From positions 7,933,001 through 7,997,000 of the forward strand of contig OX387197.1 of NCBI GenBank assembly GCA_947561715.1: DNA of 64,000 nucleotides. Direction: 5' to 3'. The notes beneath the pieces were generated by a model, which was given only the letters and a program-made list of their open reading frames with translations, did no database searches and was not told the origin of the DNA. The translations under genes were made by a program, and so were the position numbers. Positions 383 through 59,170 of this stretch are shown piece after piece; position 1 is the first letter of the stretch, and the number at the start of each line of letters is the position of its first letter. This DNA comes from Ascidia mentula (taxonomy: Eukaryota > Chordata > Ascidiacea > Phlebobranchia > Ascidiidae).

Positions 383-3066
383 ATGATGGCAAACCAACAT
401 GAGAAACGGAATTTAAAGTTTAAGTTTGCACAGTTTGTGATTAGTTCTAGTATCAGTTTAGGTGCCTACAACTCGCTGGTTATACTGCAATCCAGTATCA
501 ATATTGTCGACGGTTTGGGTAAGACTTAGAAGTGAGAAAAGTAGATTTTTTTAGTTATTTTTACTGTCTTGTAAACCAATGTTGTAAACCAACGTAATTG
601 TTTTTGGCACGTAATGATAAAACATCTTTTTCATCACAGGTGTGGCTTCAGCCACAACAATATATGTTACAACAGTTGTATTCAGCATCTTTTTTGCGCC
701 TGTTGTCCTCAAATTCTTGACAGTCAAATGGTCTCTAGCTGTTGCACTCGGGCTATATTTTCTGTACATTTGCGCAAACTATTTTGCAAGTAAGTCAAAC
801 TGAAGTCTGAAAAACAGCAAAAAATTTCAGATATGGCATCATAAACTAGACTAAATTACATTTGAATAAAATTTTCCGAAACTACGAACAGAACGTATGT
901 CTAAACAAGTTGGCTTGCATCATCAAAACTTTCTTTTATTTTTCTGCTTGTGCACAGATATTTATATGCTCGTTGCCTTTGGAGTGCTAGTTGGCGTAGC
1001 TGAGGCACTGGCTTGGCCATCTTTCATGGTTTATTGCGTGAATTTCGGACGCAAGTTCTCCAGGCTTACGCAGAAGTCACTTGATTATTACAACGGACGG
1101 TTTATGGGTTACTTTTTCTTCAGCGTGCGTGCATTCGCGGTACGGTTTGGATATGTTATGATGCTTATTTGCCAGGTGTAGGTTCTCTTATTAACACCCG
1201 AATGATTATAGGACTAGTTATTGCATAATACTGAATGGTACAATTGATTGATTTACGCCAGAAATTCTTTTTTCCTAAATCATTTCTTTTTCAACTAATG
1301 TTTTAACACTGTTTTTGGTGAGTCACTGTTCCGACCCATTAGATCACATTGACCCTGTCTGCAGGTCACTAAAAACATTATTGGCTTCATTGCCTAGAAC
1401 TGACATGTTGAAACACTTTATTGTGCATTTTGCAGGTTTTAAGTTACCTTGCCATTTACTGCATTTTCTACGCCGGACGATCGAACGATATATCAGATTC
1501 AAACAATACTTTATACGGCGGTCCCACATTCCTTCAAAACTTCTCTTTTTGTGGCCCAAACGACTGTCAGGACCCGAACGTCACCCAGCGCAATCTGGTG
1601 CGATACGTCCCATCACAAACCACGGTGTATATCATGTTGGGCGCGTCTGGAGCTATGATATTGATAGCTCTAATTGTTCAAGTATTTTTTGTCGAAAAGT
1701 CATGTCTTGAAGAGCTGGGCAAGGCAGTGAGCGATGTCGACCACGAGGTTTTACCGAGTGTTGAAATCGTCCTTTCTTCAACCGTTTCGTTGGACAAAAA
1801 AAGTAAACCTATTCCTGTTCAGCCCCATGTCTTACGGTCGATTCCAATTGCCGAGAGTTTTAACAATCAGCCACCAAGGTTTAAGAAACAAACCAAAAGA
1901 GATGTAAATATATTCCTTCATCTTGTTAAATTATGGATTTTATCACTGTTGGTTGTTCATGTTATTACAATGATTTAAATTGGTTGACCAACATAATTAC
2001 GCATATAGCAATTGATGACAACGTAGATCGTATTAGTAGACTAACGATATATTTTTGGACATAGCTTGGGACAATTTTTTTAAGTTCATATCCTATTCGT
2101 TTAACCAGGATTATCTGAGATTAGCCGTTGCATCTTTGCGAGAAACGTTTAATCAGATGTTGCAGACGAAGCAACTCCTTATCATTCCTCTAACATTTTG
2201 TACCGGTTTAATGCAAGGTTTTATTTATGTCGAAATGGTCAGAGCGTTTGCCTCATGTATCATTGGTGTCGATCAGGTATGTGCACGTTCTTGTGCTATT
2301 TGTGCACGTTTTAAACAGCATGAATTGTAAGTTACAAATGATTACAACAACCATATTTTCTGAGGTTGGCTTGTGCATGATCAGTTTTAATATTGTGGAT
2401 GCTTTGATGACGGTGTTTGTTGGAAGATATTCCTCCAAAATCGGAAGACAAGGACTTTTGTTGATATCTACGTTAGTTGATGTTGGTATTTATTTTGTTT
2501 GCTTGTTTTGGATCCCGACCGAATCTACAACGTGGTTTGTTTACTGCTTGTTTGGACTAGAGGGCATTGGAAACGGAATTCGTATCCCAATGAGTTCAGG
2601 TACTGATGTGATGCAATATTGGATTCAAGTAGAATGTGCTAAAAGTCAAAAGAACAATTTGATTGTGTGGTAATTGCCAAAAAAACACTGCATCTAGGCC
2701 AGTTCAACAGTACTATTTGAGGAAGCAAGCAAAATTACAAAACGCAAAATAATAATCCTCAAAGCTTTGTTTAATACAGATGCTCATGCTGCCTTCTTTC
2801 CCAACAACCAAGAGAAAGCTATGGTGGTTTGGTCCATATGGTACCTGGCCGGGTATGCCTTTCAGTTTGGTTGGAGCACGGCTGTTTGTGTAAGATACAA
2901 GATCTACTTTCAACTTGGTCTGCTTGTATTCAGCATGGCAACCTACAGTAGGTCACTTGCAATTTAGTAACTATGAAATTTAAAAGTTTTAACCTTTGCA
3001 GGTGTTGCTGAAGGTTTGCACAGAAAAGAAAATCGTATTAAAACATCTTCGTCAGGCCTCCAATAG
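383..3066 (+). CDS. UNC93A: UNC93A-like multi-pass membrane protein
   Basis: Probable exons are 383-518, 640-789, 958-1175, 1436-1802, 2065-2276, 2365-2599, 2780-2947 and 3002-3066, giving about 516 aa (human UNC93A has about 457). All joins keep phase. Family signs are the N-terminal LQSS-N-DGLG motif in exon 1, the membrane segment around VAFGVLVGVAEALAWPS in exon 3, the MFS-type loop GRYSSKIGR in exon 6 and a late WSIWYLAGYAFQFGWS helix in exon 7. UNC93 proteins are MFS-fold membrane proteins; UNC93A is a poorly understood plasma-membrane family member, while C. elegans unc-93 regulates a K+ channel. The weakest point is the exon 4 donor: 1802 gives the phase exon 5 needs, whereas a GTAAAT at 1904 does not. 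Two adjacent Met codons (383, 386) are the first plausible starts. An SL-type or other upstream leader exon cannot be excluded. Confidence 0.82.
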
Positions 3067-3124
3067 CCGCCGATTTGTAGGATTAGACTTTTCTGCAAAT
3101 TTTGATTTTCATTCATAATTATCT

Positions 3125-3130
3125 AATAAA
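3125..3130 (+). terminator. Poly(A) signal of the UNC93A-like gene
   Basis: AATAAA lies 59 bases after the TAG stop at 3064-3066, the usual distance for an animal 3' end. Confidence 0.6.
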
Positions 3131-3629
3131 AGTTTCTTAAAGGAACATAAATTTTCAACCAGAGTGTTAAAGAATTTTCTTTGTCTGTTTCTCGATATTA
3201 ATACTTTGGCGGGTCCTGCCACACTCGGGTACTCGAATTCACTAATGTCACATTGAATTTTTAAGTTTGTTTAATTTCCAAATGAACCAATATTGAAACA
3301 ACACTAAACCAAGAGTAACCAATGCAAACGTAACAGCGTTTAACACACATTGTCCTTTTGCGTTACAAATTGTTTATTACAGAGGCGAATGCCCTTAAAG
3401 CACACACTAAATACTTTTACAATAGCGTGTATAATTTTTCCATAGGTTGGATGTTACACAACATGCTGAAACTCTTTGATCACTTGGTAATTAGTTCAAT
3501 ATTCACGACACACCTGCGCGTCGCGGCGCACAGTTTAAGAAACCCTTGTTTAGGGCATTATGGCAGCTTAGGGCAAGCTTTAGCATGTCAACACCTTCGT
3601 GATAGACAACAACAGGATACCAATGTAAT
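3131..3629. other. Spacer after the UNC93A-like gene
   Basis: This is AT-rich intergenic sequence. I see no gene or clear repeat in it. Confidence 0.4.
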
Positions 3630-49560: not shown

Positions 49561-49774
49561 CCCGATATCTCGGCGCATCATGCGGCCTCGAGTCTTTGCT
49601 GATTCCGATCACTCGACTCGCAGACTTGACAGATACCCCATGCCTAATGGAATTCAGCGTTAAAATAATTCTGGCGAGTGGACGAAGTACCCCGGGGTGC
49701 AAATAGGCCCCCAGGGAACATGCAAACTTGAAAAGAATGCGATCAGGGAGAACTTGGAACGGCTCCCTCCACAA

Positions 49775-50096
49775 CACTGAAAAAAAAATTGGGTGTCTAG
49801 AGGCCAAACATATTGGGTGTTTGCCACAAACCATGTTGGGTTCATTCGTGGGGAAACCCAATAAACTTAACTGGGTTGTAAAAACCCAAAATACAGTTTG
49901 GGTTTTTAGTGTTCAATACCCAAAATACAGTTTGGGTTTTTAGTGTTCAATACCCACAATACAGTTTGGGTTTTTATTGTTCAATACCCAAAATTCAGTT
50001 TGGGTACTTAGACTTAATGCATTACACCACAGGAACTTTTTGGGTTGCTAGAACCAAACATCATGCCACTTTTGGGTTACTGCATCCTGCCTGGTA
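49775..50096. repeat. Left subterminal array of the CMC transposon
   Basis: A 34-bp unit, beginning TTTGGGTTTTTAGTGTTCAA and ending ACCCAAAATACAG, recurs about three and a half times between 49880 and 50010. Further TTGGGT words lie on each side. Each unit pairs a TTTGGGT with an inverted ACCCAAA. In plant CACTA elements such motifs bind the TnpA-type protein; a like role here is inferred. Confidence 0.7.
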
Positions 50097-50268
50097 ATTG
50101 AGGATATAAAATGCAAACGTGATAATCATAGACTGCAATTTATTTGCAGCGTTTCACATGAACACAACAAACGCAAAAGAAGCAAAAGCTGTGGCATAGC
50201 ACAAATGTATATCGTACAGGTGCTGAAATCAAATTGTCCAAGTACATACTAGAGCCATAAAAATCAAT

Positions 50269-50445
50269 GAGAGCTGCACACAGTAGTGCACACTGTTTCG
50301 ACCTGTAGGGTCTCACCAGTGCATCTGGTGACTGCAGCACTAATCTAGCATTTTAACCAGCAGGCACGGTGTCCGCCACAGTCACCAGATGCAGTAATGA
50401 GACCTTGCAGGTAGAAACAGTGTGCACCACTGTCTCAGCTCTCGT
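50269..50445. mobile_element. Small inverted-repeat MITE inside the CMC transposon
   Basis: The left arm begins GAGAGCTGCACACAGTAGTG then CACACTGTTTC; the reverse complement of the right arm begins GAGAGCTGAGACAGTGGTG then CACACTGTTTC. The arms are about 70 bp with few mismatches, and the middle repeats CATCTGGTGACTG inverted. It belongs to the same family as 11208, 29601 and 33131. It lies between the left array and the end of the companion gene, so it does not hit coding sequence. Confidence 0.65.
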
Positions 50446-50514
50446 TAGTTTTAGTTTTTAAACATCAAGCAATATTTACTTTAATCTTTGTAGTTACATT
50501 ACAGTTTACAGTGC

Positions 50515-52942
50515 CTAAATGAGGTTTAAAGACATTGCCAGTTCCTTGACACTACTATAAGCCCCAGGAACATACATCTTTAACCAATACAATTGTAGAA
50601 ACTGCAAAGCACGTAGCACATGTGGACAATATTCGTAATTTAGCACATAATAGTACGCAAACATTGAAATGATTGCCTGGATCAATGACTTCACTTCTAA
50701 AGTTGCCACCTTCTCACAGAAGATTAAATATTTCTTAGGGATAGTAATTGATCCGTAGACTACCAGAAAAGGCTGAAGACGATCAGGTATCTCATTGAAG
50801 ATGTCATGATGAGTAGTGTTGGCCTGTCAATACAAGTAATAGCAGAAAAATGAATTACAAGTACATCTGAATTACAATTACACATCTCAGCCTTGGAAAA
50901 TGAATGTTTATTAATATTCGACTTCAAACAGGTTAATCATTTACCATCTCATCAGAACCCTAGGCTAATTATGTACATATAAATATGATTTACCGGGCAA
51001 AGATCGATCAAGTATTTTTCGGGTCCACATTCCTTTTTGGTGTTGCAGCGTAACAGGTTACATAGTAACCATACCCCAATGATGATTACAGTTTCTTAAA
51101 CAAATCACATATCATAACTTTATGGTGTCCACTGTACAAACTGTTTACTTTTCAATAATATTTACACAAAGACATTTTTTATCAATGGTTTAACAACATT
51201 AAAATCAGTTTCTAAACTTTAGATTTGTTCAAATATTATGCAACTCACCAATGGGATACGGCTCGTCAACAGGTAGATGTTGAAGAACCTTAGTTATAGA
51301 CATTGATTTCTTTGGCCTAGCTTGAGCATATTGTATTATTTTGGTAAAAAGTGGCCTTGCACTGCTTTCAAGTTCTTTTTCAGTTTGTTCCCAACTTCCA
51401 CATCTTGAAAATTCTCTCATGAGCTGAAAAATTGTAAATGTTTTTTTTTTTTGAAATATATCAGTTTGACAATGATACTGTAGTGAAACTAATTAAAAAC
51501 AATATGCAACTTTACCTCATCATACAAAAATAAAGCCGGCCATTCCTTTTTAAGCAAATTTGGTGTGGGATTTTCTTCCAAAATATACTGCTTACGAAAC
51601 TCAAATGTTTCGGTCATGAGCTCAGAGATAACTTTTTGGTTTCGGAGCACTTGAGCTTTTGAAAATTCTGTTTGAAGCATCTAAACCACAATTTGATTGA
51701 TACATATACTTGGGACAAAATATGCATAGAAATGTCCATAAATTTACCTGTTGCTTTTCAATGTTGGTGGATTTATCTGTACTAATGGAAACACGTTTCA
51801 CTTTCCTTCTTTTTGCAGCACGTGTGTTTGCCACTCCACTTTTGTTATTATTCTGTCTTTTTGATAATGGCTTATCATTTTTCAATTTTCGCACTTGCTT
51901 CATTTGGCTGTTTATTTTCTGGCTTATTTTTCTTAGCCAAAACACCTGTACAAATAATACCTTCTAACAACCATACATCATGTTTTTTTAAAACTAAACC
52001 AAATATCGTTAAATGTACACAGACCTTCGCTTCATCTGTACTGAGTGTAAGACAAGCTTTTCCCTGTTGTATAAGTGCCAAGACAGCCATTTGGCGTATT
52101 TTTCTTCCAGGATGCCTGAAAAGATTTTATGAAAGGCTTTATTAAGTGTAAAATTTGGCTGCATCAACACACCTTTCAAACTCTCTCATTACTCTGATCA
52201 ATTCAGAAGTTATTTCTCTTTTCCCCATTTCACTTATTATTCCTGTCCGAAGCAATTCTTTTGCATGATAGCCAAAGTTACATAAGTCGATAGGAAACAT
52301 TTTTGGGATTGGTTTCACTGAGTCACTGGACACAAAACTGCAATCTGAATACTCCTCAAGGCTTTCATCAAATTTGGCGCCTTCATAAGGTATTGTGGGC
52401 CCATTGCTATCTTTATCTATGTCTGAAGGCATTTCATCTTCTGCATCTGAACTTGAAAAAATTGGTTCTGTGTCAGCACATGATGCTGACTCTGTGTCAG
52501 GGCAAGATGCTGACTCTGTGTCAGCGCAAGATGCTGACTCCGTGTTAGCACTAGACAATGATCTAGTATAATCCCCCAAACTCATTTGTGCCTTAAATGC
52601 TGTAAATATCTTGATCATGTAACCACATGGTACATTGGGCAAAAGCCTTGCAAAAACATCAATGCTATTTATCATTGTCATTGCTTGGCCGTCAATTTTT
52701 GCATCTGCATAAATAAGAAGTATCATTTCCCTTTCAACTGCTTGACTGATCTCACTCACATATTTGGGGCATGATTTACCTTACCAAGATATGTTTTAAT
52801 AAAATTGAGGCATAGGAAAACGTTAGATTACAATATATACTTGACAAAACAAACCTTTGAAGGCATTGCACACAGTTTCACATTCCAAGCAATCAACATC
52901 TTCCGATTTTAGTATCTGGCGAATAACTTCTACCAATTCCAT
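50515..52942 (-). CDS. Companion protein of the CMC transposon
   Basis: Minus-strand exons are 52855-52942, 52173-52779, 52025-52115, 51748-51945, 51516-51680, 51249-51423, 50994-51094 and 50515-50823, all in phase, giving 577 aa. It starts MELVEVIRQILKSEDVDCLE. Exon 2 has an acidic serine-rich part with a TESASCAD repeat. Exon 4 is strongly basic (KRQNNNKSGV, RAAKRRKVKRV), a likely nuclear signal. The C-terminal part (WPALFLYDE, LPVDEPYPIE, DIFNEIPDRLQPFLVVYGS) recalls the SAMD3-like uncharacterised proteins that accompany animal EnSpm elements, from memory only. By analogy with plant TnpA it may bind DNA at the ends or form part of the transposition complex; that is inference. It is transcribed away from the transposase. 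Confidence 0.7.
52466..52550 (-). repeat. Coding minisatellite, 24-bp unit
   Basis: About three and a half units of GATGCTGACTCTGTGTCAGC plus four bases encode TESASCAD repeats in the companion protein. The unit length is a multiple of three, so copy number can change without loss of frame. Confidence 0.75.
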
Positions 52943-53342
52943 TGTACTTATAGAGACCATTGTAGGTTGCAGGCAGTATTATTTTTTTCAGCTTCACTTA
53001 AATCACGCCCTGAAATAGGATTAGAGGACACAGGAAAAATTTAAATTGCCACATACAAACTGTTTGCAAATGCACAACGAATGACGAGTTGCGTTGCTAA
53101 ATCCGTCTGAGCGACAACACGAGGTGCATTGCGCGGGAAAAAATACTTACGTAGACAAGTCAGGTAAGACTCGCCTTTTTCTCGTTTCTCTCTCTCTCTC
53201 TCTCATGTAGACAAGTTTAGTATTTTTTCCCATTTTCGCGATTGCGAAACCAAGTGATTCAGATTTCGACTTTGGCGCCTTTTTGTTTATGGCGTGGGTT
53301 TTTAGCAAGTACTAAATTTTACCGTCACACCAGAAGTTGACA
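52943..53342. promoter_or_regulatory. Bidirectional promoter region of the CMC transposon
   Basis: This 400-bp spacer separates the start codons of the two divergent transposon genes. It holds a (CT)n run at about 53188-53204 and two direct copies of GTAGACAAGT near 53152 and 53206. No TATA box is obvious. Confidence 0.45.
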
Positions 53343-56300
53343 ATGGAGGAATCAACAATAACTGTTTGCAATTTTTGTTTCAAAAATTTCAAATCGTTTG
53401 TGGCGGTTAAAAGGCACATTTTTTCTGCGCATGTATTTGATCGCAACTTTAAGCTGGTTTGCAATATTGAGGGGTGTTGCGAACGTTTAAATGATAAATT
53501 TTCCCTACGAAAGCACGTAAAAAAACATCACAAATCAAAGCCTTGGAAATTGCCAACATCCTGGTACAGAAATTCGCCAAAAAGTGCATTTAATTGCCAA
53601 CAAGACATTCTCCAAACTTACACTGATTTGCCTGATGATACTGTGGTTCAGGGCTGCCAGATGGTCAAAACACTTGACGGCCAATTTTTTTTCTCTCACG
53701 GCCAAAATTCGGCCAAATCACTTTTTTTGATTTTTTTTTCTCTTACGGCCAAAATTCGGCCAAATCACGTTATAAGTTTGATGATTTCTACAGAAACGAC
53801 TATATAGCCGAATATAAATTCGTAAATTGTATGTTTAAAACACTGTTATCTATATGCTTATCAGTGGTTTCAAAACCGGTTATGTTGCTAAAACATTACG
53901 ATTGCAGCATAATTCTTTACCAACTCAGTCAAGATTAGTTTATGACGTAACAATTTTTCGGAGACATATTTATGACAACACAATCGTCCACAAATCTATT
54001 GATAACCTGAAACCAGCAATGCCTTTTGTGCATTTATATAGTACCAAGTGAAATTCGGCCAAATTCGGCCAAATATCTGCCTTACGGCCAAACGATTTTT
54101 TCGCGGCCAGGCCGATTTTCAAACGGCCAAATTTCTGGAATTTGGCCGTGAAGACGGCCAAATGGCAACCCTGCTGTGGTTTATGCCGTTGATGATGACG
54201 ATCCACAGTCAAGTTTAGATGAGCTTGATTCTGATATGATTCCATGTTCGTCCAAGGGTAGAAAAACAACCGATGATCTGATTTTTAAATCTGATCTTGA
54301 TATCACAGCTTATAAAAATACTCTTGCCAATATTACAAAGAGGAAAGACACAATGGCCTTATCACTTTCACAACTTAAAACGGAATGTAATTTGACAGAA
54401 GTGGCCTTAACTGCCATTCAGAATTGGACGGAGGGGCTGTTGGAAGAGTGTGCCAGAACAATAATTGGAGGGGTCAAAAGTAATTTAGAAATAACACCAA
54501 ATTTGAAAGAAGTTTTTACCCTGGGTATGGGATTGGCTAATCCTTTCCACGATGTTGACTCAGAATATCAACGGAAAAAACTACTTCCTTGCTTTGTTGT
54601 GAGTATTTGCCTTCCTACCTTACATGTTGCATTCATTTTTTTGGCAAAGTTGACAATGTTATTGTGACAAAGTATATTTCTGCAGCCCCCTAGAAGTCAT
54701 GTCCTCTTGCAAACTCCCAAAAATGGATCGCATCAAGGAAGTGTAATTCATTCACTACAATATGTGTCCCTAATCGACACTTTAACATGCTTGCTGAATA
54801 ACTCTGGACTATATCAACAGGTGGAACAATAAAATTGTTTTGGCATTCCTTTGATCACAGATTTTTTTAACATAGTTTACAGATCGATCAAGCAAAAGCT
54901 TGGAAATGTATGAAAACTTTATGGATGGAAACTATTTTAAACAACACTCATTGTTTTCTCAAAAAAAGCATGATATCCAACTTCTACTATATTATGACGG
55001 CTTTGAAGTGACTAATCCACTGAGTTCCAAAACTGGAACTCATAATATGGGTAAGATGAATAAATAGTGTGTGGTTATATTTTCATACCTGTAATAACAA
55101 TGAGAAACAAATTTTGCATGATGTTTTTGCAGGTGCCATTTATTTTATGGTGTTGAACACACATTCCAAATTTATGTCGGCTGTCAATCGAATTTTTTTG
55201 AACACATTGTTTTACTCCAAGGATTTAAAAAATTCACTGATTGGGTGGAAACAAATACTTAAACCTCTTAATGATGACCTTTTCATCTTGGAAACAGTAC
55301 GATCAATGTGCATTTGTGTATTATATGGTGTAATTTGTTTGTATTAATGTAACTGTAGAGGGGCATTAACATATTTGTTGGAAACAAGGAAATAAACTTA
55401 AAGGGCACCATTGCTCAAATGGCGCTTGACAATCTTGCTGCACATTCAATCCTTGGCTTTACAGAAAGTTTTTCTGGTTCCAACACTTTTGTTTCCCGAT
55501 ACTGTTTATGTACAGGAAAAGATATTCAAACAAAAGTATGTTTATATACTATTTATTTTTGTGTTTGTTAAAATGTTTATTGGACTTCCTTGTTTCTTAT
55601 AGAACACTTACAAGCAATGCCAAATAAGAACAAAAGTTTCATATGAGAAATGCATCAAAGCCATTGAAACATCTGGTAAAAACCAGCAGGGTATCAAGTT
55701 TAGATGTCCTATATTGTCAAATTTTTTTCACCCATTTGACAATTTTGCTGCTGATGTGCATCACGATTTGTTTGAAGGTGTCATACCCTATATGTTAAAG
55801 CTTGTGCTACAGGTTTTTTTTTGTGTGTGTTCCTTGCAAAGCAGACATTTTTAACAGTGAGTTATACAACAGAACTTCACAGGCGAAAAGAAATATTTTA
55901 CTTTGGAGTCGTTAAATGCAAAGATGACTTGCTTTGAGTATGGGGTTGATATTAAAAACAAACCAACAGCTCTTTCACACAGAAAACTTTTCAATGCCCA
56001 ATCCAAAAATCTGAAACAAACTGGTAATATGATTGCATTACTCTTTTTTTTAAAACAATTAAATTTATGAATTTTGTTTGCCCAGCTTCTCAGTATTGGT
56101 GTCTGTCCCGAAAATTACCAATGCTGATTGGGAATGTTATACCACAAGATGATCCCACATGGAAATTGTATGTACTGTTTTTAGATATATTGGACATATG
56201 TTGTTCCCCAAGAATCAGTACCACCAGTATAACTGAACTAGAAGTCGCCCTTCAGGAGTTTTTCATTGAATTCAAAGTGTTGTTTCCGTATCAGTCCATT

Positions 56301-56951
56301 ATTCCTAAAATGCATTTTCTTCTCATGTATCCCAGGTTTATCAGAGAAATAGGACCAATGTCGCAATTTTCTTGTATGCGGTTTGAAGCCAAACATAAAC
56401 AATTGAAAAAAATTATTACAAAAAGCAACAATTACAAAAATGTACCATATACAATAGCCTTTCAACACCAAGTAAGTTTGGCTACACAAATATCCCAGAG
56501 TGATCTATTTTCTTGCTCCACTGACTTTGAAAAATGTGTTGGTGTAAGCTCTGCTGTTGCATTTGAGGGCTATAGTGTATTTCCCACTAAAGCACCCATT
56601 ATAAGGCAAACAAGCTGTATTTTTGTGGATGGCATAAAGTATAATCTAAACAACGTGTTATGCACTTCTGTGGATAATGAAAACATTCCTACATTGTTGC
56701 ATGTCAGAAACATTTTTTTAAATGAAGATTGTGAAACAATATTTGTTGGAAACCAGTTACTTTGTGATTATTACAATGAACATTTTCATGCATGGTCAGT
56801 CACACATAATGACAGAAGAGCTTATGTGTTTCAAAAAAACCTTGTATATCCCATTCCATTATCCATACATTTACCTTTTGGTTCATATGAGCACTTTGTT
56901 GTTCCGAAATTTAGACTTGAGTTTACCGTTGGCACAGCTCTTATTAATTAG
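53343..56951 (+). CDS. CMC (EnSpm/CACTA-like) transposase with N-terminal C2H2 fingers
   Basis: Exons are 53343-54598 (interrupted at 53649-54181 by a hAT MITE plus its target copy), 54686-54820, 54876-55050, 55133-55296, 55359-55535, 55603-55812, 55873-56023 and 56086-56951; without the MITE they join in phase to 866 aa. Two C2H2 fingers open it (CNFCFKNF-16-H..H and CNIEGC...HVKKH). The core has ADVHHDLFEGVIPYMLKLV, where an Asp of a DDE/D site is expected, KKYFTLESLNAKM, IGNVIPQDDPTWKLYVLFLD and PKMHFLLMYPRFIREIGPMS followed by FSCMRFEAKHKQLKK. These blocks are typical, from memory, of animal EnSpm/CACTA transposases. Full assignment of catalytic residues needs an alignment. The MITE brings stops, so this copy probably makes no whole transposase unless the insert is spliced out. 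Confidence 0.7.
53649..54173. mobile_element. hAT-type MITE in the transposase exon, perfect 8-bp target duplication
   Basis: The ends are CAGGGCTGCCAGATGG and the inverted CCAAATGGCAACCCTG. CTGTGGTT flanks it exactly at 53641-53648 and 54174-54181. The body is rich in ACGGCCAAA and TTCGGCCAAAT words near both ends and has no transposase frame. Deleting one target copy plus the element joins VV to YAVDDDDPQ in frame. Confidence 0.92.
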
Positions 56952-57058
56952 TTTGCATTTCTCAGTCATATCATAGTGTGTGGAATTATGTGCTTGCAAA
57001 TAAACACTTGGTAATTTATGCAAAAACTTCTGAAGTTAGATGTTATGTGATGCAAGAA

Positions 57059-57475
57059 ATTACCCAAGCAACAGACAAACATTCTTAACACCCAAAATGT
57101 TGGTTTGGGTAATGTTTCAAATTACTCAAAAAATCTGCAAACATTCCCAAAACCCAAGATGTTGGTTTGGGCTTTGCATAAAACTTCCCAAGCAATAGAC
57201 AAATATTTTCAAACCCAAAATGGTGGTTTGGGCAATGCATAAAATTACTCTAATAATAGTCAAAAATTATTTAAAAACAAGATGTTGGTTTGGGTGTTGT
57301 ATAAAATTACCCAAACATTTTAGGTGAAATACTTTTGGGTTTTCCTTTACCCAATGTTTTTCCAAAGAAAAAAAAAGTTTACCCATTTCGTTTGGGTGTT
57401 CGAACGCAAGTAGTTTGGGTTTCACAAAAGTACACCCAATTGCTTTCAGAATACAACCCAAGTTTTTTTACAGTG
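57059..57475. repeat. Right subterminal array of the CMC transposon
   Basis: Four units of about 61-62 bp (starting near 57061, 57122, 57184 and 57245) each carry ACCCAA or a variant and GATGTTGGTTTGGG-like sequence. Single TTGGGT and ACCCAA words continue to the terminus. Unit length and sequence differ from the left array, but the core hexamer is the same. Confidence 0.7.
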
Positions 57476-57819
57476 AAGGCAAGGCTTAAATGTAATGTGC
57501 TCTTTTGTCCAGAATTGATGACGAAATTTTGTGACAACTATCTTCCGAAAATTACGTTGTAAAGCAGTTTACGCTGTCCGCACGGGAGAGGGCTGCGTAT
57601 AACACAAAAACAAGTTTCTTTTTGAAAATTTTTGAAAAAACTTACCAAACCCGAGTAACAGGACACGAAAAAGTCAGGTAAAAGAAAGGAGATTAGAAGA
57701 GCCTCAATTAAACGGGCTACACTGCACAATATCTTTTAAATGCGATAATATGATTTTATTTAGGTGAAAAATAAGTGGAGTTAATGACTTTGAATAAAAA
57801 AGCCAAAGGTAAGATGCTG
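57476..57819. other. Sequence between the CMC transposon and Penelope-like copy B
   Basis: This 340-bp stretch may be the remaining part of repeat copy A that the transposon split off, since the left flank at 49774 ends inside that repeat. I cannot confirm continuity by similarity. Confidence 0.3.
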
Positions 57820-59170
57820 TTAATCATTTTCAGTAAACGTTTCGAACCTATACTTGGTTCATCATCAGTACTACTGCAGCAGGTTGCAGAAAAGCGTCGA
57901 GTTAATAAGGGACTACAACAAGCAACAAGTCGGAGGCGTGTAGCGTGACAGCAGCATCGAAAGCACAGAGTGACGTCACCATTTGCAGAGAGTCAAGCTG
58001 CAGTGCAGACCTAAGTGTTGAAAAGGTATAGGGTTTAGAGCCGTCATCAATATTCAGTGTTGGTTTATGGTGCTGGATGTAAACTGTTTCCAACATGAGC
58101 AATTTAGATTTGATGTTACAATTATGTAGAACTTTTGGCGAATTGAAATTGACAACATGGTCCGAGTTTTCCCACAGGTGGTTGCTGACCTCGCTTTCAG
58201 CTTTTGTTGAGGTGCTCATTCATGCGAATGGAAAGGTGATTTTATTCGTCCGCGGATAAAGTGAAACTTGCACTTGCATCCTGTGCAAAAGTGCTTGGAA
58301 ATTCAGTAGGCGACGCGTGCAAAACTAAACAAATGATCAACGTCGCATTCGTCGCGCCCGTTACCTGTTCCACCTCTAATTTCTCCCTCACAGCATTCGC
58401 CATTAACAAAACACCATCATTATGAACGTTAGTTTTAACTCTTTCACCCTCTACAATTATTGCTCGGGATTCAATTCCGATTTAGCCCATTTTTACCTAC
58501 ACCCGCGATCATCGCGAAAAGAATTTGTCATTTCAAGTTCATTACATGACCAACAGTTTCGAGGTTTCGAAATGTTACCACGTTATTGTAAACTTGACCA
58601 AAGCATGCCACGTTCGGTGTGTGGATGAAATGCTGACAACGTGGACATTACTCTAACAAACATATTAGCTTACCTCGAGCCTTCTACTCACAGGACAGAG
58701 GCGAGACACACTGCATGGCATCGGGAATTTCCCTTCGTGCGCACTTCATTGATGACGAGCCAGTCTTGTTGTCGTTGGGACTCATTCTGGTATTATTTAA
58801 TTTTGGTATTTTGTATCCTCCCGCACTCCTTAATTGGGTATTTTTTTGGGGGGCACTCTTTTGCTGCACTGGAGCCAACCAGACATGCGACCATTTGTCA
58901 ACCTGGTAAATGTACAGTTTGTTTAGATACAGTGGGTTATAATATCATGTAGATTAATATCTTACTGCGCTCTTTCATCAACAACGTCAAGAAATGTTGG
59001 CCTCAATTACACAGGTTCCGCCTGTTTCATGAACTTCTAGTGCGACACAACCTTGATATCGCAATATTGGAAAAGTGGTATATGGAAAGAATGAATACAA
59101 TTTCTGCATACCTTGGCGAATGGATAAAGAGTGTTCACCAAATGGACCAACTTTTTCTGTTACATACATA
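57820..59170 (-). mobile_element. Penelope-like retroelement copy B, decayed
   Basis: It opens with ACGTTTCGAACC and GGTTCATCATCAGTA like copy A and lies in the same orientation. Similarity to copy A runs through the GIY-YIG-like tail (57902-58219), the linker (58684-58878) and the stretch at 58962-59060. It is broken in many places. It lacks the hAT insertion present in copy A. Confidence 0.5.
57902..58219 (-). pseudogene. GIY-YIG-like endonuclease tail, copy B
   Basis: The minus-strand translation has ESEVSNHLWENSDHVVNFNS, KSKLLMLETVYIQHHKPTLN and DDGSKPY. It matches copy A at most positions and fits the C-terminus of Penelope-like GIY-YIG domains better than copy A does. Confidence 0.55.

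Follow-up and report, generated by a model that had tools for sequence, protein, structure and literature searches.

Does a DNA transposon of the EnSpm branch move in an animal, as En/Spm does in plants, by means of two proteins of its own? The question is raised by a 7701-bp element at positions 49775–57475 of the window, a stretch of 64,000 nucleotides (contig C1, 7933001–7997000) from a tunicate genome, the 196-Mb assembly of which was covered by the genome searches. The element opens with CACTG at 49775, closes with CAGTG at 57475 and carries two divergent genes, gene A for a transposase and gene B for a companion protein. It is one copy of a young, recently mobile cut-and-paste two-gene DNA transposon family, which on homology descends, within the CMC/CMCT transposons, from the CACTA/EnSpm (Transposase_21) branch. 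The reading favoured here, with somewhat more confidence than doubt, is that of a young two-gene transposon of the EnSpm branch in which protein A would cut and join the ends and protein B would bind the terminal arrays and pair the ends. Plant En/Spm, as described in PMC2613891, needs two element-encoded proteins; here, in a single chordate genome, the majority of the related transposases that were examined have a companion beside them.

Termini, copies and recent mobility

Four complete copies were found, namely the window copy (7701 bp), L012 (7174 bp), L013 (3687 bp) and L014 (3382 bp). All four start and end at exactly the same bases and have identical terminal 30 bp, which bears out the matched CACTG termini of the original prediction, an earlier reading of the window from its letters. 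Genome searches gave at least seven matches for the left 326 bp and at least four for the right 416 bp; partial copies include L015 (left part only), L016 (113 bp of the left end only) and the diverged L017. L012, L013 and L014 are flanked by TA on both sides, and for each of them a paralogous empty site, obtained by searching the genome with the joined flanks, holds a single TA at the junction. The window copy is flanked by AA on both sides, and a related, diverged site (86–89% identity over 104 bp of the left flank and 12 bp of the right flank) fits a single AA. Since the empty sites hold one TA and the elements have TA on both sides, the termini and a 2-bp target duplication are proven; the ends do not extend beyond 49775 or 57475, and L012, L013 and L014 provide further copies with both termini. 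The left flank, at about 49671–49774 of the window, is itself repetitive, with six further matches at 86–89% identity.

Over 7162 aligned bases, 32 differences (0.45%) separate the window copy from L012. In L013 and L014, which sit at different TA targets, the same deletion joins window 53149 to 57150 across 6 intervening nt; a form already deleted thus appears to have moved. L013 retains the whole of gene B, and L014 lacks part of gene B exon 5 and all of exon 6.

The features of the two ends are as follows:

49773–49774, no strand, left target site duplication AA (flanks and empty-site comparison)
49775–50100, plus strand, left end with CACTG terminus and TTGGGT/ACCCAA array of 13 motifs (copy comparison and motif count)
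49838–49861, plus strand, left-end signature GGGTNCATTCGTGGGGANNCCCAA, conserved in related families
49884–50005, plus strand, 34-bp tandem repeat of 3.6 copies within the left array (tandem-repeat analysis)
57050–57475, plus strand, right end with TTGGGT/ACCCAA array, 62-bp tandem repeat (57050–57315) and CAGTG terminus (motif count)
57476–57477, no strand, right target site duplication AA (flanks and empty-site comparison)

Gene A and the class of the element

Gene A contains 8 exons with GT..AG introns and is modelled at 866 residues, the exons being taken from copy L012. It is open in L012 and broken in the window copy by a 525-bp insertion in exon 1, which is absent from L012, where the site is uninterrupted. 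It corresponds to the miniature inverted-repeat transposable element (MITE) suspected within the 866-residue gene: the insertion has CAGGG ends and an 8-bp duplication, CTGTGGTT, at 53641–53648 and 54174–54181. By the ends and the 8-bp duplication alone, it is hAT-like. L033 and L042 also contain inserts, the edges of which carry GGGGCGTATCCAG or similar letters. The features of gene A are as follows:

53343–54598, plus strand, exon 1, two C2H2 finger motifs, with the insertion inside (Pfam, below cut-off)
53649–54173, no strand, 525-bp hAT-like MITE in exon 1 (comparison with L012)
54686–54820, plus strand, exon 2 (gene model)
54876–55050, plus strand, exon 3, presumed first catalytic D, YYDGFEVTNPL (gene model, alignment)
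55133–55296, plus strand, exon 4 (gene model)
55359–55535, plus strand, exon 5, presumed second catalytic D, ALDNLAAH, and SRYC replacing CxxC (gene model, alignment)
55603–55812, plus strand, exon 6, DVHHDLFEGV motif (gene model, alignment)
55873–56023, plus strand, exon 7 (gene model)
56086–56951, plus strand, exon 8, HFLLM and presumed catalytic E in MRFEAKH (gene model, homologue search)

The exon 8 query reached 85 places in the genome. The 13 best, referred to as near, comprise the window, L012, one partial relative at 93% identity, nine places at 49–59% and one at 40%; the remaining places are mostly weaker (about 27–43%), many of them in single open frames of approximately 800 residues. 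All 23 Transposase_21 (PF02992) hits found in the genome, 10 of which exceed the Pfam cut-off, lie within 1.3 kb of gene A homologues and mostly in the same open frame. The CMC/EnSpm assignment of the original prediction is therefore upheld through relatives of gene A, which are Transposase_21 (CACTA/EnSpm) proteins of the same genome. Furthermore, the blocks YYDGFEVTNPL, ALDNLAAH and MRFEAKH align across families, in the comparison that had been suggested for locating a DDE/D triad, and the triad residues are presumed, from position and conservation, to be those in these three blocks. A profile search of PDB with the transposase alignment gave seven weak hits (four zinc-finger and three STH1 chains) and no transposase, a search of NCBIfam gave nothing useful, and two scans of viral contigs confirmed no relatives.

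The other marks of the class were compared one by one. The 5'-CACTR (CA..TG) terminus of CACTA/EnSpm is present as CACTG..CAGTG in the four complete copies and in one near-family copy, the arrays of 13 and 13 motifs (against a random mean of 1.2) correspond to the subterminal arrays of classical plant EnSpm, the homology to Transposase_21 is present through the genome homologues, and the DDE blocks are present. The duplication differs from the 3 bp of classical plant EnSpm, being 2 bp, TA and once AA; this lies inside the CMCT range, given as 2–5 bp in PMC12730594. According to the same source, C(2)C and H(3-4)H motifs are common to the CMCT clade. Around these motifs, seven loci of three near families contain SRYC, and one family retains H(3)H while two have H(3)M (one locus each). 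In the distant relatives, read by eye, CRFC or CRYC occurs in all five rows covering the motif and H(3)H in all seven. As the zinc motif is partly replaced in the window clade, membership of CACTA/EnSpm is claimed by descent only, for a divergent clade.

Gene B and its putative SAM-like N-terminus

Gene B lies on the minus strand, divergent from gene A, and is modelled with 8 exons and 558 residues in the window, L012 and L013, in all of which it is open. Two divergent multi-exon genes had been predicted; the divergence and the 866 residues of protein A stand, and the 577 residues assigned to protein B are replaced by 558, by way of a 101-nt exon 7. This exon shares 61% identity over 31 residues with the relative L076 and has matches in L057, L060, L064 and L075. 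The exons of gene B are as follows:

52855–52960, minus strand, exon 1, start codon and first half of the putative SAM-like domain (gene model)
52173–52704, minus strand, exon 2, second SAM-like half, acidic repeat and conserved block (gene model, profile)
52025–52115, minus strand, exon 3 (gene model)
51748–51945, minus strand, exon 4 (gene model)
51516–51680, minus strand, exon 5 (gene model)
51249–51423, minus strand, exon 6 (gene model)
50994–51094, minus strand, exon 7, 101 nt (phase; conserved in L076, L057, L060, L064 and L075)
50515–50823, minus strand, exon 8, conserved C-terminal block (39 genome matches)

Weak evidence suggests that the N-terminus of protein B is SAM-like. Profile A3, built from five window-type companions, gave 10 PDB chains at E ≤ 1 (best E 0.0033), nine of SAM domains and one of Plexin-C1. 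The closest SAM-domain chains are those of L3MBTL3, SAMD1/atherin, polyhomeotic and Sfmbt, all of which are chromatin proteins. A Pfam scan of the same five companion rows gave a weak SAM-family hit in two, one each (best E 0.027). In addition, the companion of the distant locus L039 matches SAM_1 with E 6.4e-4 and 20.5 bits, against a cut-off of 23. Gene B matches no Pfam family above the cut-off; outside the SAM-like N-terminus, no known domain and no DNA-binding domain was recognised, and further PDB searches with the companions gave no hits or chance-level hits only. Fish proteins annotated as "sterile alpha motif domain-containing protein 3-like" may be related to protein B, presumably having its WPALF, TFxxRR and C-terminal blocks in common. 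Exon 2 contains a 24-bp tandem repeat of 3.7 copies (window 52467–52555), encoding a repeated acidic octapeptide.

Companions beside related transposases

The companion is not peculiar to the window element, as it also adjoins most of the related transposase genes examined. Of the 13 best gene A places, 12 have a divergent companion no more than 15 kb away, or 10 of 11 when the window and L012 are excluded; among the other 67 gene A rows, three have a gene B exon 8 match within 15 kb. These counts comprise 80 of the 85 gene A exon 8 rows, 20 of the 26 rows of a further gene B query and 38 of the 39 gene B exon 8 rows, second pieces of one and the same place being excluded. Meanwhile, a tandem companion, downstream on the same strand, is found at 16 of the 17 distant loci examined, with L036 lacking one; approximately 50 further distant places lie outside this count. 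The profile used for these, A6, was built from five of the 17 loci, several of the other loci being near-copies of these five, and the weakest companions that it reaches are those of L039 (E 6e-4) and L045 (E 4e-4).

The two companion types align by hhalign with a probability of 97.2 and E 3.3e-11 over 322 columns at 24% identity, and their conserved blocks are colinear. Of nine distant companions read, eight contain a different N-terminal block in place of the SAM-like one, and the ninth, at L039, is SAM_1-like; this tandem companion, at about 2318–3500 on the transposase strand, opens with the SAM_1-like domain.

Two other readings of the companions were abandoned. The distant relatives were at first taken to lack a companion, as the gene B queries missed them, until the DNA downstream of L032 and the A6 search revealed the 16 of 17. 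The selective retention of companion-only copies was rejected as well: 25 of the 38 exon 8 rows have no transposase within 15 kb, and 21 of these 25 also have no exon 2 match and thus look like ordinary internal deletion derivatives.

Terminal arrays and the left-end signature

The motif arrays predicted at both ends are evident from the counts of TTGGGT/ACCCAA, with 13 motifs in the first 326 bp, 13 in the last 415 bp and one across the intervening 6960 bp. Random sequences generated from each end with a first-order model (n = 2000) contain a mean of 1.2 motifs and a maximum of 7. When up to three mismatches are allowed, the genome contains 32 matches to the left-end signature GGGTNCATTCGTGGGGANNCCCAA, compared with one for the reversed control. 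Among the 32, 24 lie within 3.5 kb of a companion match, one is the partial copy L016 and seven are near none. These seven all carry three mismatches (C1:419145 and C70:10320356, for example) and may be solo ends, further families or chance matches.

Seven of the 11 other near loci (L020–L026) contain 9–15 TTGGGT/ACCCAA motifs per 400 bp on the right side. L020–L023, L025 and L026 terminate in CAGTG and L024 in CAGTT, and L020–L023 share a common sequence up to the terminus with differing flanks. One copy of the L020–L023 group was traced to its left end, giving a 7148-bp element with CACTG and with TA on both sides, the DNA of which aligns with the window family only in stretches of gene A. 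The arrays and the left-end signature persist between related families whose other non-coding DNA no longer aligns.

Proposed division of labour between the two proteins

In the favoured mechanism, protein A, through its finger motifs and DDE core, would recognise the CACTG ends, cut them and join them. Protein B, with a SAM-like N-terminus and conserved C-terminal blocks, would bind the TTGGGT arrays, and its self-association would pair both ends and/or repress the element, as TnpA does in plant En/Spm. Deletion derivatives would move by the action in trans of protein A. Of the two proteins, the window copy could provide B but not A, its gene A being broken; L012 has both genes open. From the combination of a transposase, a second protein, arrays and derivatives, as in plant En/Spm, we infer that A cuts and joins and that B binds and pairs. 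By this analogy, gene B probably corresponds, in animals, to the helper protein that binds the ends of plant En/Spm elements.

Several observations weigh against this mechanism. Array binding could fall to the finger motifs of protein A. The window family has substitutions in part of the usual zinc motif (SRYC, HFLLM), and window protein A itself gave no direct PF02992 hit in the Pfam scan, the assignment being made via homologues. Both gene models were built from splice signals and conservation. The N-terminus of gene B gave only a Pfam hit of 0.073 to a SAM-like family, and the assembled part of gene B gave no SAM hit in the Pfam scan. The ratio of nonsynonymous to synonymous substitution rates in gene B is approximately 0.3 against one diverged copy and approximately 1 against another, on few changes; for both genes, the nearest diverged copies hold too few changes to decide on selection. 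Profile A5, built from window-type companions, found none of the distant companions by hmmsearch, so the homology of the distant companions rests on the hhalign comparison of 3- and 5-sequence alignments and on the colinear blocks. In addition, four of the 11 near loci (L027–L030, mostly partial or broken) have no array, and the distant families with a companion have at most two motifs per 400 bp of the stretch seen; hence, protein B and the arrays do not always occur together. Two of the distant groups still align at the limit of the compared DNA, so their ends lie further out, and the ends are out of view in the families compared.

A possible, though clearly less favoured, alternative is that protein A alone handles the ends, its fingers binding both arrays and termini, and that protein B travels with the element for some other purpose, such as regulating host chromatin or protein A, or counteracting silencing. 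Protein A does carry two C2H2 motifs (best Pfam E 1.1e-5, under the curated cut-off), profile scans recognised no DNA-binding domain in protein B, and the SAM-domain chains closest to it belong to chromatin proteins. However, companions with colinear blocks occur at 12 of the 13 near places and at 16 of the 17 distant loci examined, a retention which argues for a core role of protein B, and the distant transposase L047 has a similar finger motif (under cut-off) but no TTGGGT array in the stretch seen. It is far less credible that gene B is a host gene fragment, or a gene of an unrelated neighbouring transposon, brought inside the element by chance. Its opposite strand and its own introns would suit such an origin, which is contradicted by the presence of gene B, whole or partial, inside the termini of four copies and by the related companions adjoining related transposases elsewhere in the genome.

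It is improbable that the family as a whole, with the window copy, consists of dead relics that have not moved recently. The 525-bp insertion in the window gene A speaks for such a reading, as does the finding of no more than two copies with all of gene A, these counts being lower bounds. Yet these two copies have diverged by only 0.45%, genes A and B are both open in L012, and the four complete copies combine identical terminal 30 bp with clean empty sites. Within the favoured division of labour, a further and tentative proposal is that the SAM-like companion may be an ancient second subunit of animal EnSpm transposition, co-inherited with the transposase while the tandem and divergent orders were shuffled; it might polymerise on the TTGGGT arrays by way of its SAM domain and so pair the ends, and its acquisition or alteration might have let the window clade drop some canonical zinc ligands of the transposase core.

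The arrays offer a candidate target, both genes are open in one copy and the natural deletion derivatives can serve as reporters, which makes it possible to test the two-protein model in an animal. Meanwhile, the recent mobility of a clade with a part-replaced canonical zinc motif is of structural interest.

Comparison with known systems

According to PMC2613891, plant En/Spm relies on a transposase together with another protein, which binds the subterminal repeats; deletion derivatives are mobilised in trans, and TnpA and Tnp1 share little similarity. Compared with maize En/Spm and plant CACTA elements (TnpD/Tnp2 and TnpA/Tnp1) in that description, the window family has in common the CACT- termini, the subterminal arrays, a Transposase_21-lineage transposase, another protein encoded by the element and deletion derivatives that retain the ends. 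Unlike plant En/Spm, whose products are alternatively spliced from one unit, it contains two separate divergent genes; it also differs in the 2-bp rather than 3-bp duplication, the SAM-like companion and the TTGGGT motif.

Animal CACTA elements with 2-bp duplications and multiple protein products are already known: as PMC1636069 reports, SmTRC1 of Schistosoma yields several proteins by alternative splicing, and TRC/CACTA relatives exist in Ciona, Danio and sea urchin. The window family resembles these in its Transposase_21 proteins, 2-bp duplications, truncated derivatives and more than one protein product. However, the SmTRC1 termini start with CCC, its further products are reportedly not detectably conserved, and its description in that paper mentions no SAM-like companion (PMC1636069). 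The fungal ESTA elements, EnSpm-like with TA duplications, were compared by their description in PMC12730594; they share the TA duplication and the CMCT-type transposase, but are fungal families with or without a TET/JBP dioxygenase. The entries listed in searches of open-licence papers revealed no SAM-like companion of animal EnSpm elements, nor its tandem and divergent orders, arrays combined with a left signature or the altered zinc motif.

Host and neighbouring sequence

The tunicate origin proposed in the original prediction agrees with the mitochondrial COX1 on contig C79, identified under the ascidian code (table 13 alone), all 480 given residues of which align with PDB COX1 chains. At its 16 AGR codons, the best PDB chain has 13 Gly, 2 Ala and 1 Gln. 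Since COX1 aligns when read with the ascidian code and AGR falls mostly on Gly, the host is a tunicate.

Beyond the right end of the element, a 105-residue open frame (..VLHNCNIKSKLLMLETVYIQHHKPTLN..) lies on the minus strand at window 57902–58219, which looks like the terminal part of a retroelement carrying a GIY-YIG-type domain.

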